Part shown: positions 7,205-36,380 of the stretch, in pieces | Position numbering within the stretch: the first letter of the stretch is position 1 | How the letters are laid out: every line of letters starts with the position of its first letter | Assembly (NCBI GenBank): GCA_016182845.1 | Contig: JACPFT010000008.1 | Span: 62,001 to 126,000, forward strand | Length of the DNA: 64,000 nt | DNA from: Gammaproteobacteria bacterium | GTDB taxonomy: Bacteria; Pseudomonadota; Gammaproteobacteria; Enterobacterales; Permianibacteraceae | Direction of reading: 5' to 3' | Made by a program: the position numbers and the translations under genes | Notes under the pieces: generated by a model | What the model saw: the letters and a program-made list of their open reading frames with translations, nothing else | Database searches by the model: none | Told to the model about the DNA's origin: nothing

Positions 7205-7313
7205 GGCTGGGCGCTCCGGAAGCTAAAACACCTATTCTCAGCGGGACAGGCCCGGCGGCGCAAGGCCGGGACACATTCTATGACATATCCGTGACCGGCT
7301 TGTTACAGCACAT

Positions 7314-18774: not shown

Positions 18775-19803
18775 TTAGAAACGCATGGCCGCATGATCCA
18801 GCAGGCGCACCACCATGGCGATGGCATGGGGCACGACCTGGCGCGCGACGCCCACGCGATCGGCATGGGCCGTGCTGTTCAGCACGATGCCGCCGTGAGC
18901 ATAGGAGAACGCGCCGCCCTGGGTCAGCAGGGGGCGGATCTCGCTGCTGGCCGGGTTGAGCGGGGCGAAGTCCGCCAGGGCCGTGGTCACCAGGGTCGGG
19001 TCGTTGAGGCGTTCGCCGTCGTAATAGTCCCGGACCCAGGACTCCCAGCCGCTGTGGTTGAGATCCGAGGTGGTCCAGGTGTGGTGGGGCTGGAGCAGGT
19101 CGGTGGTGTGCAGGACGAAGCCCAGGGTCTGGGCGGTGGGGCGTGCCCAAAACTGGTTGTACCAGTATTGACCCAGGTTATCGATGGGCTGCCAGGGGAT
19201 GTTCTGGAAGTCGGCGTACTGGCCCTTGGTGGAATAGCCGCCGTGGCGGTAATTGGCCTCGGTGACGCCGTAGCAGTTGTACTTGCTGGATTCGCCGTAC
19301 AGCCAGCTCATGGAGCCCTTCATGCCACCCGGGCCGTCGTCCAGGTGGTCGTTGACCAGCCAGGTGGCCGCCATGTTGTCGATGTCGCCCCAGACGGTGA
19401 GCTGGCTGTAGTTATAGCCGCCGATGTCGTTGCCATGGGCATCGCCGCCGCGGGTATGGTTCTGGAAATGCCAGTAGGAGGTGTATTTGACGAGGCTGGC
19501 GCCGGCGCCCCAGACCGGGGCCTGCTGGCAGTCGCCGGTCACGGCGCCGCAGAGATAGGTGTCGGCGAAATCGTCCACGTCGTAGGCGCCCTGGCCGAGC
19601 ACTTGGGCGAATTGTTCGATGGTATAACCGGCGCGGCTGGCGGCGGCGGCCAGGCGGGCATACTGGGTGGTGGCCGGGTTGGCCTTCATGTAATTGACGG
19701 CATCGATGGCGATGCGCTTATGGGTTTCCTGGGTGAAAGCCTGGGCGGCGTGGCTGGAGGCCAGGGCGGCGAGCGCCAGCAGGGCCTTGTGCGTCGAGTT
19801 CAT
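18775..19803 (-). CDS. Secreted zinc-dependent phospholipase C / P1-nuclease-like protein
   Basis: 342 residues with a signal peptide cleaved after SSHAAQA. The mature protein begins FTQETHKRIAIDAV and has histidine/aspartate clusters in the order expected for the all-helical, three-zinc phospholipase C/S1-P1 nuclease fold: YWHFQNH, LGFVLHTTDLLQPHHTW, then LNHSGWESWVRDYY. Substrates of the fold are phospholipids or single-stranded nucleic acids; which applies here cannot be said. A good Shine-Dalgarno (GGAGGG) precedes the start. It is followed by the parvulin-type isomerase gene, a plausible folding helper. Together with its two downstream neighbours it separates lptM from dapF. Confidence 0.78.
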   Translation of the reverse strand: MNSTHKALLALAALASSHAAQAFTQETHKRIAIDAVNYMKANPATTQYARLAAAASRAGYTIEQFAQVLGQGAYDVDDFADTYLCGAVTGDCQQAPVWGAGASLVKYTSYWHFQNHTRGGDAHGNDIGGYNYSQLTVWGDIDNMAATWLVNDHLDDGPGGMKGSMSWLYGESSKYNCYGVTEANYRHGGYSTKGQYADFQNIPWQPIDNLGQYWYNQFWARPTAQTLGFVLHTTDLLQPHHTWTTSDLNHSGWESWVRDYYDGERLNDPTLVTTALADFAPLNPASSEIRPLLTQGGAFSYAHGGIVLNSTAHADRVGVARQVVPHAIAMVVRLLDHAAMRF

Positions 19804-19994
19804 CTATCCCTCCAGAGGAGCATCGTTGTTATGAATGCTTCCCCAGAGGGTGACGACTCCCTGGTGTACCGCTCCCGATGGATGACTCCGGGGAAAGCCG
19901 GTTCAGACTAGTCGGACCAGATTGCAGGTCAATGACGGTGGAATGAATATTGTTTTTTTGTGGACGGGTTCTTAGTGGCTAGGGGGAGCGGCGC

Positions 19995-33048: not shown

Positions 33049-35028
33049 TCAGGCCCCCACTTCCCCGCCGTCGTCGCGGGTGATGACCACGGTCGCCGAG
33101 CGCGGACGGCCGCCGCTGGGGCCGTCCGGCCAGCTGGAGAACTTCATGGGATTGGCCGGATCGTTGTCCTCGGCGCCCGCCAGGGGTTCGCCCGGGTGCT
33201 GGATATTGACGAACAGGGTCTTGCGATCCGGGGTCATCATCCAGCCGGTCAGCTCGCAGCCCACCGGGCCGGTCAGGAAACGCTTGATCTCGCCGGTACG
33301 CGGATCGGCCACCAACATCTGGTTATTGCCGAAGTTCTTGTAATCGGTACGGCTGGCGGCATGTTCCGGGTGGTACATGGCCGAAGTGGACATGTCGGTC
33401 TGGATCCACAGACGGCCGGCGGTGTCGAAGGCCAGGCCGTCCGGCGCCGAGAAGATGTCGCCCTGGATATTGCCCTGGAGATTGGCCTTGGAGGACTTGG
33501 GATCGCCCGCCAGGACGAACAGGTTCCAGGTGAAACTCGTCGCCGCCGCATCGGAACCGGCTTCGCGCCAATGGATGATATGGCCATGGCTGTTGGAGGC
33601 ACGCGGGTTGGCGGCATCCACGGCCGGGGCGCCGCTGGCGCCGCGCTTGGAATTATTGGTCAGGGTCAGGTAGACGTCCTTGGTTTCCGGGTGCACGGCC
33701 ACCCATTCCGGACGGTCCATCTTGGTGGCGCCGACGGCATCGGCGGCGGCACGCGCATTCACCAGGACTTCCGCCTGATCGTTGAAGGCCGGGGCCACCA
33801 GAGCGCCCTGGCCGAACACCAGGGGCAGCCACTCGCCGCTGCCATCGCTCTTGAACTTGGCGACGTAGAGCGTGCCCTCGTCCAGGAGGTTCATGTTGGC
33901 GGCGCGGTTGGCGGCGTTGTAACTGCCCTTGGACACGAACTTATAGGCATATTCGTTGCGTTCGTCGTCGCCCATATAGACCACGACCTGGCCGCCGGGG
34001 GCGAGGGTCACCGTGGCGCCTTCGTGCTTGAAGCGGCCCAGGGCGGTGCGCTTGACCGGCTTGGACGCGGCGTCATAGGGGTCGATTTCCACGACCCAAC
34101 CGAACTTCTGAGCCTCGTTGGGATGCATGTCCAGATTGAAGCGATCGTCGATCTGGGTCCAGTCGGCGCCATACACCGCATTGGTGATGCCATAGCGCTT
34201 TTCCATGGCGCCCGGGACGGCCTTCTTGAAGAAACCGTTGAAGTTCTCTTCGCAGGTCAGGTAGGTGCCCCAGGGGGTCTTGCCGCCGGCGCAGTTGTTA
34301 AGCGTGCCATAGGCCTTGAGGCCGCCGCCGTCGTTCTTGGACTGCACCAGGCGATGGCCCTTGGCCGGACCGCCGATGCTCATTTCCGTGGCGCCGGTGA
34401 TGCGGCGGGCGTAGTTGGAGCCGGTCACCACGGTCCAGTTGCCGTCGACACGCTTGGCCTCGTACACGGACACGCCGTGGGCGGCGATCTGCTTGGCCAC
34501 GTGCTCCGGGTTGTTCTTGTCGAAGGCGGCGCCGTGCAGCAGGCCGCTGTCCACGTATTCGTGATTCACGCAGACCAGAAAATGGCCGTTGGCGTCGGCG
34601 CCCTGGATCGGGAACATTTCCATGCAGTCATGGTGCATGCCGAACTGCAGTTCCTGCTCGACGGCGGAGTTCGTGGCGTCCTTCTTGAAGACCGGGGCAC
34701 CGGCCTTGGCGCCGATGGGATCGCCCCAGCGCACGAAGACCTTGGCGCTATAGCCTTCCGGCACGCGCACCTTGTCCTCGAAGGAGGCGCCGATGGGCTT
34801 GAAGCTGGATTTCGCGGCCGGCGGCACGAAACCGTCGGCGCCGCTCTTGCTGCCGCCGCCACCACCGCAGGCGCTCAGGGCCGTGGCGCCGAACAGGCCG
34901 GTGGACATGGCCCCCAAGCCCCCCTTGAGGAAGCTGCGACGGGCGAAGCGGGTGTCGATGATCTGTTCAAAATGGGGATTTTCGGAAGGATTGGACAGGC
35001 CCAGATCCTCGATGTCGTGCTGGCTCAT
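33049..35028 (-). CDS. phoX: PhoX-type alkaline phosphatase (DUF839), Tat-exported
   Basis: 659 residues of the PhoX/DUF839 family. A Tat leader carries R30-R31 in FARRSFLKGGLGA and runs to a lipobox-like ATALSACGGGGGS. The six-bladed propeller shows the family's conserved blocks YVDSG, MSIGGPAKGH, NNCAGGKTPWGTYLTCEENF, GWVVEIDPYD and MDRPEWVAVHP. PhoX enzymes bind calcium and iron and strip phosphate from organic esters in the periplasm. A Pho-box-like array lies 82 bases upstream, so induction by phosphate starvation through PhoB is likely. The leader fits the tatABC genes encoded earlier in the window. Confidence 0.93.
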   Translation of the reverse strand: MSQHDIEDLGLSNPSENPHFEQIIDTRFARRSFLKGGLGAMSTGLFGATALSACGGGGGSKSGADGFVPPAAKSSFKPIGASFEDKVRVPEGYSAKVFVRWGDPIGAKAGAPVFKKDATNSAVEQELQFGMHHDCMEMFPIQGADANGHFLVCVNHEYVDSGLLHGAAFDKNNPEHVAKQIAAHGVSVYEAKRVDGNWTVVTGSNYARRITGATEMSIGGPAKGHRLVQSKNDGGGLKAYGTLNNCAGGKTPWGTYLTCEENFNGFFKKAVPGAMEKRYGITNAVYGADWTQIDDRFNLDMHPNEAQKFGWVVEIDPYDAASKPVKRTALGRFKHEGATVTLAPGGQVVVYMGDDERNEYAYKFVSKGSYNAANRAANMNLLDEGTLYVAKFKSDGSGEWLPLVFGQGALVAPAFNDQAEVLVNARAAADAVGATKMDRPEWVAVHPETKDVYLTLTNNSKRGASGAPAVDAANPRASNSHGHIIHWREAGSDAAATSFTWNLFVLAGDPKSSKANLQGNIQGDIFSAPDGLAFDTAGRLWIQTDMSTSAMYHPEHAASRTDYKNFGNNQMLVADPRTGEIKRFLTGPVGCELTGWMMTPDRKTLFVNIQHPGEPLAGAEDNDPANPMKFSSWPDGPSGGRPRSATVVITRDDGGEVGA

Positions 35029-35109
35029 GATTCACTGCCTTGGCTAAATGGCTGACAACGCCGGCCCGCTCGGGGCGGACCGGAAACGCGCCCAGGCTAG
35101 TGGTCTGAT

Positions 35110-35160
35110 GTGACAAGGAGGTTAGCGTCGTGTGACGCCGCCGTTAACAATGTGTGACAA
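35110..35160 (-). promoter_or_regulatory. Pho-box-like array upstream of phoX
   Basis: Five 7-base units start exactly 11 bases apart at 35110, 35121, 35132, 35143 and 35154. Read on the phoX strand they are TTGTCAC, TGTTAAC, GCGTCAC, CGCTAAC and TTGTCAC, all ending T(C/A)AC. The 11-bp direct-repeat phase and TGTCAC core match PhoB binding sites. A possible -10 (TAGCCT) lies about 10 bases beyond the last unit, where a PhoB-activated promoter would place it. Confidence 0.75.
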
Positions 35161-35161
35161 G

Positions 35162-35326
35162 CCTAGTGGTCCATGCGGGGTGTGGCTAACGTCAGTTCGG
35201 ATGCATGAAGCCCTGAGACAAGGCGCCGCGACGAGTCATAGCAGGGCTATGGCGAGGAGCGGCAACGCTGTATCAGGGTTTCAGGCGCCGAAATCATGTA
35301 ACCGACACCCCGCATGGACCACTAGG
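35162..35326. mobile_element. 165-bp element with perfect 22-bp terminal inverted repeats (MITE-like)
   Basis: The ends CCTAGTGGTCCATGCGGGGTGT (22 bases; here cited by position 35162-35183 and 35305-35326) are exact reverse complements. Internally CATAGC/GCTATG and CCCTGA/TCAGGG pairs continue the symmetry, so most of the element can fold as one hairpin. It encodes no protein. The right end supplies the TAG stop codon of the GGDEF gene and the left end touches the Pho-box-like array. No transposase is present, so it would be non-autonomous. Confidence 0.6.
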
Positions 35327-36380
35327 GCTCGGGCGGGGAACACCATTCGCACAAGCGGTCGCCGCCCTTGGCCTGGGCCTCGTGCAGGGCGCGGGCGGCG
35401 CAATCGATCAAGGCCTCGGGGTTCAGGCCGGCATCGGGCTTGAGCGTGGCGAGTCCCAGGCTCGCGGTCAGGAAGGGCTTGCCCCCGCCATGGGGCAGGC
35501 GTCGAGCGCGCAGGGCCCCCAGCAGCCGCCGCGCCGCCGCCTCGGCCCGCTCCGGCGCCACCAGGGGCAGGAGCACGGCGAAGCAGTCGCCGTCGAAGCG
35601 CGCCACGGTCTCCCCGGCGCGCTCGAAGGCCTCGGCCAGGGCGGCGGCCACCTGTTGCAGGCAGTAATCGCCCAGGTCGCGGCTGTGCAACCGGTTGTAC
35701 TCCGAGAAGCCGTCCACGTCCGCCAGGATCAGGGAAATGGGCAGGGCCTCGCGCTGGGCCCGGCCGCATTCCTGGGACAGGAGCGGTTCCAGATGAGCCC
35801 GGCTGTACACGCCGGTCAGGGCATCGCAGGGGTCCAGGGCTTCCAGCTGGGCGCGCAGGGACTGAAGCTCGGCGCCGGTCTTCAGCACGCGGCCGCGCCA
35901 GTCCTCGGCCCTTAAACCCTGATCCACCGCCAGGGCCAGGAGCTCCAGGGCCGCCCCCAGGGCCGGCCGCCAGGCCTGGCGCGTAGCCGCCAGGAGGCCG
36001 TGGCCCGGGTGTCCGGGCACGGGAGCCACGGCCAGGGTCGACAGGCCCGCGCCCCGCCAGAAGTCCGGCTCGGCCTCGGCCGGCAAGCGCGCCAGGGTCC
36101 AGCGGCCGGCCTCGCCCCGGACCAGCCGGGCGGCGAGCCAGGGGAAGCGGGCATGCTGGACCTGTAGGCCGGACCAGAGCGGTTCGTCCTCGCCCTGGGC
36201 CAGGAGCCGCCAGCGGCCGTCCATGGCATCGGCGCCGTCCGAACGCAACAAGCCCAGGACATCGAAGCCGGCCAGACGCCGCGCCTGGCGCAGCAGCGTG
36301 CACAAGCCGGAAGCGTCCTGTGCGGACGCCGTGGGCTGGGAGGGCGCCCCGGGACAGGGCGCGGACGGTTTGTTAGCCAT
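35322..36380 (-). CDS. GGDEF-domain protein with degenerate active site
   Basis: 352 residues. The first 165 or so form a GAF-like region without a signal peptide; a short coiled coil (VLKTGAELQSLRAQLEAL) leads to the GGDEF domain, which starts DPCDALTGVYSRAHLE and has ILADVDGFSEYNRLHS. The active-site loop reads RFDGDCFAVLLP, so GGDEF has become DGDCF: the first glycine and the catalytic glutamate are lost. It is probably not an active diguanylate cyclase and may instead bind GTP or signal by contact. The stop codon TAG belongs to the terminal repeat of the adjacent 165-bp element. Confidence 0.88.
   Translation of the reverse strand: MANKPSAPCPGAPSQPTASAQDASGLCTLLRQARRLAGFDVLGLLRSDGADAMDGRWRLLAQGEDEPLWSGLQVQHARFPWLAARLVRGEAGRWTLARLPAEAEPDFWRGAGLSTLAVAPVPGHPGHGLLAATRQAWRPALGAALELLALAVDQGLRAEDWRGRVLKTGAELQSLRAQLEALDPCDALTGVYSRAHLEPLLSQECGRAQREALPISLILADVDGFSEYNRLHSRDLGDYCLQQVAAALAEAFERAGETVARFDGDCFAVLLPLVAPERAEAAARRLLGALRARRLPHGGGKPFLTASLGLATLKPDAGLNPEALIDCAARALHEAQAKGGDRLCEWCSPPEP

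Follow-up and report, generated by a model that had tools for sequence, protein, structure and literature searches.

Five short repeats in 11-bp steps precede phoX in a gammaproteobacterial draft genome (3.82 Mb, 26 contigs), and they raise the question of whether they form an operator of the phosphate regulator PhoB and whether, as a preliminary description claimed, five units in perfect phase imply strong cooperative control. The window, by which we mean the whole stretch of DNA analysed, is 64 kb long (G000:C14:62001-126000). Within it, phoX (33049..35028, minus strand; 659 aa) is predicted to encode a PhoX alkaline phosphatase whose domain spans most of the protein: Pfam PF05787 (594 bits) covers residues 75-613 with profile positions 2-515 of 515, and the PDB PhoX chains 4amf and 3zwu match residues 76-659 (E about 1e-157). 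By eye, the N-terminus is twin-arginine-like. The next gene upstream, in the same direction, is a GGDEF gene (35322..36380, minus strand; Pfam GGDEF, 101 bits). An Rfam search of 34900-35500 returned nothing at E up to 1, and no phoX was found at E <= 1e-80 in two other genomes of the family.

Register and scores of the array

Read directly from the sequence, the phoX strand carries five T(C/A)AC cores in 11-bp steps; their plus-strand counterparts GTGA, GTTA, GTGA, GTTA and GTGA start at 35110, 35121, 35132, 35143 and 35154, and the array on the phoX strand is TTGTCACACAT TGTTAACGGCG GCGTCACACGA CGCTAACCTCC TTGTCACATCA. We searched both strands of the window for five T[CA]AC at a fixed period, which gave one match at period 11, the phoX array itself, and none at any other period from 8 to 30. 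The exact phasing given in the preliminary description is thus confirmed, and it is unique in 64 kb.

We scored the half-sites as 7-mers with two matrices, one built from 12 half-sites in five promoters of the same genome (pstC, porin, pstS, TonB-receptor, and a GGDEF gene on contig C22; phoX excluded), and one fitted iteratively across species, with the window excluded, on the 77 of 108 training promoters that had a good pair. All five half-sites lie on the minus strand. Half-site 1, the farthest from phoX (TTGTCAC; 35154..35160), and half-site 5, the promoter-proximal one (TTGTCAC; 35110..35116), each score 9.5 bits with the cross-species matrix and 10.5 bits with the own-genome matrix. Half-site 3 (GCGTCAC; 35132..35138) scores 5.8 and 5.3 bits, half-site 2 (TGTTAAC; 35143..35149) is weak (3.9 and -2.8 bits), and half-site 4 (CGCTAAC; 35121..35127) is degenerate (-3.1 and -1.7 bits). 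A predicted -10 element, TAGCCT (35094..35099, minus strand), follows 10 nt past half-site 5, a spacing comparable to that of E. coli promoter layouts, and 88 nt separate half-site 5 from the phoX ATG. Counted back from the -10 element, registers 0, 2 and 4 are good, register 3 is weak, and register 1 is degenerate. Four of the five half-sites exceed 0 bits with the cross-species matrix, and three, spaced 22 bp apart, are good by both matrices. Only at the level of the 4-bp core does the phrase "five units" hold: neither matrix supports unit 4, one of the two rejects unit 2, and no neighbouring units are both near consensus.

With the own-genome matrix, the five-unit sum of the array is 21.9, against 13.2 for the best of 40 simulated first-order Markov 64-kb windows; with the cross-species matrix, trained on phoX promoters from elsewhere, it is 25.6, against 7.2 at the next-best place in the window. 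None of 2000 dinucleotide shuffles of the promoter reached the five-unit sum (best shuffle: 17.0), and the best two-, three-, four- and five-unit sums were reached by 16, 0, 0 and 0 of the shuffles, respectively. The same sums rank 55th, 23rd, 46th and 6th among 108 phoX promoters. The best adjacent pair (13.3 bits) is outside the top eight pairs of the window by the own-genome matrix, and each of the pstC, porin, pstS, TonB-receptor and C22 GGDEF promoters in this genome has a higher-scoring one; the strict in-phase run of the array is three. Matrix scoring upholds the array as a whole, its five-unit sum exceeding all the nulls applied, but not unit 4, and unit 2 by one matrix only. The claim that five perfect units mean strong cooperative control is not supported, as only the three units at 22-bp distances are good by both matrices and the best pair is of middling rank (55th of 108); unusually strong control of phoX was rejected in view of the weak units 2 and 4.

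Over its 55 bp, the array has a self-identity of 20/33 (0.61) at lag 22 and of 15/44 (0.34), near background, at lag 11. Because self-identity is higher at lag 22 than at lag 11, the array is most aptly viewed as a 22-bp repeat in 2.5 copies; this period is one PhoB-dimer length and suggests that the array may have grown by duplication of one Pho box.

We consider the array to be the PhoB operator of phoX, with a probability of about 0.9, for which we infer binding, activation and a response to phosphate. It lies on the right strand, in the right place and at the right -10 distance for a PhoB promoter. That Pho boxes stand upstream of phoX, as proposed earlier, agrees with two matrices, with the same register in other phoX promoters, with the -10 spacing, and with the likeness to the pst, phoB and porin sites. 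Judged from the sequence, what counts against PhoB is the poor score of units 2 and 4 by the own-genome matrix, and of unit 4 by both, and that adjacent pairs are off consensus, unlike those in the other Pho promoters of this genome. In low phosphate, PhoR would phosphorylate PhoB, which would then bind the tandem half-sites head to tail and replace the -35 element, and the TTGTCAC half-site 10 nt before the TAGCCT element would be placed to recruit sigma-70 RNA polymerase to phoX. Each 22-bp turn would offer one GTCAC half-site and one weaker TAAC half-site, so that the dimers would be expected to be held mainly by one strong half-site each, and the distal units would contribute modest cooperativity rather than an exceptionally strong switch. 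The array thus appears ordinary and functional-looking, an operator of a known kind that is longer in register and weaker per unit than first thought, and its strong sites every 22 bases rather than every 11 make it a little unusual. This makes phoX a confident predicted member of the phosphate regulon of this genome, and the array a natural variant for how PhoB uses alternating strong and weak half-sites.

Comparison with known Pho operators and other phoX promoters

A Pho box, in the available excerpt of PMC4415409, consists of two 11-nt direct-repeat units, each with seven conserved and four less conserved nucleotides, and Pho operators differ in the number and conservation of their units. 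Excerpts of two further papers describe a TGTCA tract in each half-site, with 6 bp between the tracts of a full site (PMC6194859), and a strict spacing to core promoter elements that is backed by structural models (PMC10294691). As far as these excerpts go, the array shares with the PhoB Pho box of Escherichia coli and its relatives the 11-nt direct repeats, the TGTCA tracts and the strict promoter spacing, and it differs in having five registers, with strong units at 22-bp steps and TAAC-type half-sites between them. The PhoP operator of Streptomyces pitH2, as outlined in part of PMC7866108, has four units, two of consensus type and two less conserved beside them, with distinct affinity, and so mixes consensus and less conserved units as the phoX array does; however, Streptomyces belongs to another phylum, its consensus in the excerpt of PMC4415409 is GTTCACC, and it is in the phoX array that strong and weak units alternate.

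We compared the array with phoX promoters at 80 named GTDB loci (the top 80 of at least 582 confirmed), mostly proteobacterial but also from cyanobacteria, Nitrospira and others, to which 29 relatives from the same order were added (94 of 295 genomes matched, of which the best 30 places, this genome included, were taken). Upstream regions comprised 300 bp before the start codon, script-chosen in the relatives, and were at least 250 bp long in 107 of 109 cases. The sample includes kin: four are Polaromonas, and six within L153-L160 share one genus. Pairs scoring at least 14 bits with the own-genome matrix were found in 12 of the 80 named phoX upstream regions (the best 80 of at least 582) vs. 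three of 160 control segments. The cross-species matrix admits A at position 5 (28%); half-sites of the TAAC type are therefore part of the phoX half-site family.

At a threshold of 0 bits (n = 107), the longest in-phase run was one unit in 19 promoters, two in 33, three in 19, four in 31, five in three, six in one, and eight in one, so that runs of two to four occurred in 83 of the 107 other phoX promoters and runs of five or more in five; four or more in-phase units were found in 1% of shuffled promoters. In 75 other promoters, A occupies column 12 past the last 7-mer in 83% and T occupies column 16 in 81%, these being the second and sixth of the bases 11-16 nt after that 7-mer (hexamer [TC]AnnnT). 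The phoX promoter fits these -10 columns if they are counted from half-site 5; the script that located the last unit stopped at unit 3 of phoX because unit 4 fails, and there is no -10 element behind unit 3.

We then anchored promoters on a -10-like hexamer, by a rule learned on the same promoters, which retained 75 of 108 including phoX and dropped the 33 that did not fit. In the 74 others, occupancy of successive registers at 0 bits was 100% and 85% (both used for anchoring), 55%, 42%, 9% and 12%, compared with 6.4% of all positions. Since 9% is close to 6.4%, the fifth register is near background and the phoX operator typically has up to four half-sites. The earlier statement that two to four units are usual and five long is fair in this light, and the general picture is of up to four half-sites back from the -10 element and rarely a fifth. 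Register 1 was absent with register 2 present in three of the 75 anchored promoters, phoX included; register 0 is weak in the two others, which may be spurious. The phoX promoters of Polaromonas (L028-L030, L034), Amphritea (L107) and an order relative (L166) likewise carry tandem units at 11-bp steps on the strand of phoX, the last with a run of six units, and many phoX promoters have a -10-like hexamer at the same distance, whereas the array described here reaches the fifth register with register 1 degenerate.

Alternative readings and the adjacent palindromic element

The repeat could instead serve another regulator of the OmpR/PhoB type, a reading for which the peak of self-identity at lag 22 and the near-background value at lag 11 speak. 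The genome does encode 13 further full-length matches to the PhoB model, all below its cut-off, any of which could bind a like site. The compound GTCAC-TAAC motif, however, is found three times in the whole genome (two in the array and one elsewhere) vs. two for the reversed control, so that no genome-wide 22-bp GTCAC/TAAC regulon was seen, and the GTCAC half-sites and -10 spacing match those of phosphate genes, with phoX itself as the gene downstream; we regard another regulator as very improbable. A chance resemblance, or a neutral tandem duplication with no regulatory function, would account for two of five units being weak, duplication alone could give the 22-bp period, and 16 of 2000 shuffles do reach the best adjacent pair. 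It is nevertheless extremely improbable given the three-, four- and five-unit scores, which no shuffle attained, and given an array that is unique in the window and correct in strand, place and -10 distance.

A neighbour of the operator, which is not part of the array, deserves separate consideration. It is an imperfect palindrome of 157 bp (35166..35322) with inverted ends and a flanking TA on either side (35164-35165 and 35323-35324), and the TAG stop codon of the upstream GGDEF gene sits at its edge. The genome holds 13 other near-full copies (86-98% identical) and six more over 109-143 bases, while no match was found in 58 relatives at E <= 1e-6. TA is present on both sides in 13 of the 14 near-full copies and missing on one side in the other; TA being constant and the bases beyond it variable, a TA target duplication is favoured. 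Short, with many copies, inverted ends and a target duplication, the element is MITE-like. A search of the draft genome with PF13358 for a DDE_3 transposase, which would point to an IS630/Tc1-mariner parent, turned up nothing at E <= 0.001. Folded as RNA with its TA flanks, the element reaches -93.3 kcal/mol against a shuffle mean of -51.4 (z = -9.2).

In three of the 14 near-full copies (those at phoX, L006 and L010), a frame of at least 100 codons runs into the element and stops at the boundary TAG; in three more, a frame of that length continues for 16-28 bases beyond the boundary. Four solo element ends were found on three contigs (L144, L145, and two in L146), two of them coinciding with the TAG of a gene (L145, L146); the stretches around the four showed no inverted partner end, and the L147 stretch has no match to the element end pattern. 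By eye, the GGDEF stop before insertion would have been two nt from half-site 1. On the plus strand, CTAGTGGTC at 35097-35105, beside the predicted -10 element, equals nine bases of the element edge (flanking TA included), likely by chance or as a relic.

The element could have brought the half-sites with it, or could shape the operator by insulating phoX from the GGDEF gene. Five bases, the flanking TA and three more, separate it from half-site 1, and it would form a very stable hairpin between two genes in the same direction. Against its having carried the operator, 55 matches in this genome besides the locus itself all start at or after query base 69 (window 35158), which means that the array is absent from every other copy of the element, and the next register, inside the element edge, scores -16.6. 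An origin of the array in the mobile element is thereby rejected. We consider a formative role of the element quite improbable overall; such a role would be compatible with the other readings, and putative insulation of phoX from GGDEF transcription may still occur. Returning to PhoB, a fuller account would combine a 22-bp-period operator, in which a consensus half-site and a TAAC half-site together hold each dimer, with a further strong half-site in the fifth register, rare elsewhere; the operator would perhaps have arisen by Pho box duplication, and a mobile hairpin, inserted where the upstream gene stops, would seal it off. This combination has a small chance of being right in full; if it is, graded and late induction of phoX is predicted rather than a strong early switch.

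Other Pho-like sites in the genome

The genome encodes PhoB (TIGR02154, 346.6 bits), PhoR (domain PF11808, 77 bits), PstB (416 bits) and PstS (283 bits), all over the respective cut-off, as well as PstC slightly under its family cut-off (190 vs. 196 bits) and, divergent at the pst locus, a homologue of the OprO/P-type (phosphate-selective) porins. Two adjacent TGTCAY with one mismatch occur at 15 places in the genome vs. seven for the reversed control, and about half of the 15 may therefore be chance matches. Five are on contig C22, three of them at the pst locus (before pstC, before the divergent porin, and between phoR and pstS, with PhoB and PstB nearby) and two in the gap separating a TonB-dependent receptor from a second GGDEF gene. 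A frame of phoU size lies between pstB and phoB. Gene starts in this genome were taken from the longest frame, which for pstC, the TonB receptor and the C22 GGDEF gene contains the Pho site, and a shorter start was assumed there.

The hexamers 10 nt past the last 7-mer are TAGCAT in pstC, TATCCT in the porin, TACAAT in pstS and TAGGGT in the TonB-receptor promoter, compared with TAGCCT in phoX; the C22 GGDEF promoter has TTAGCT at the -10 position and does not fit the usual spacing. Like sites with the same -10 spacing stand before pstC, porin and pstS, with better adjacent pairs than in the array. Five other matched places were checked for the -10 spacing, which is present at L139 and L143 and not at L133, L135 and L137. 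At L139:2941-3010, a CTGTAAC/TTGTCAT pair with TAGACT 10 nt on precedes a 317-aa protein with no family match. At L134:4168-4524, Pho-like sites stand in divergent orientation with a TonB-dependent receptor (TIGR01782, 595 bits) on one side and a GGDEF gene on the other, and the usual -10 spacing is seen on the receptor side only. In the window, three in-phase Pho-like units (CTGTAAC, CGGTCAC and ATGTCAT; 7280-7308, minus strand) are found upstream of a HIT-domain gene, with no -10-like hexamer at the usual distance.

A second Pho operator in the window (19921..19949, minus strand) has the units TATTCAT, CCGTCAT and CTGCAAT in 11-bp register, with a -10-like TAGTCT 10 nt on, and its last unit is 124 nt before the ATG of an uncharacterised 342-aa protein (18775..19803, minus strand). 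This protein belongs to no Pfam or NCBIfam family, its N-terminus is signal-peptide-like by eye, and 10 of 294 other genomes contain relatives at E <= 1e-15. In four of the 10, all in one genus, there are units with a TAG-type hexamer that fits at the same spacing; this is not so in the remaining six. Searches of the PDB by sequence gave no matches, or only unrelated ones at E of 0.38 or worse. The structural model (mean pLDDT 65.8) has a weakly phospholipase-C-like fold: each of the twelve best PDB fold matches is a phospholipase C or an alpha-toxin of that family, at weak E-values of 0.064 to 0.44 (none at E <= 0.001) and with TM-scores of 0.26-0.40 by query. Those phospholipases C are zinc-dependent, and the invariant His, Asp and Glu residues in the alignment of the protein would, by eye, fit a zinc enzyme. 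A Pho-controlled, secreted phospholipase-like enzyme is a plausible prediction for 18775-19803, and the cross-species matrix points to its gene as another likely member of the regulon.
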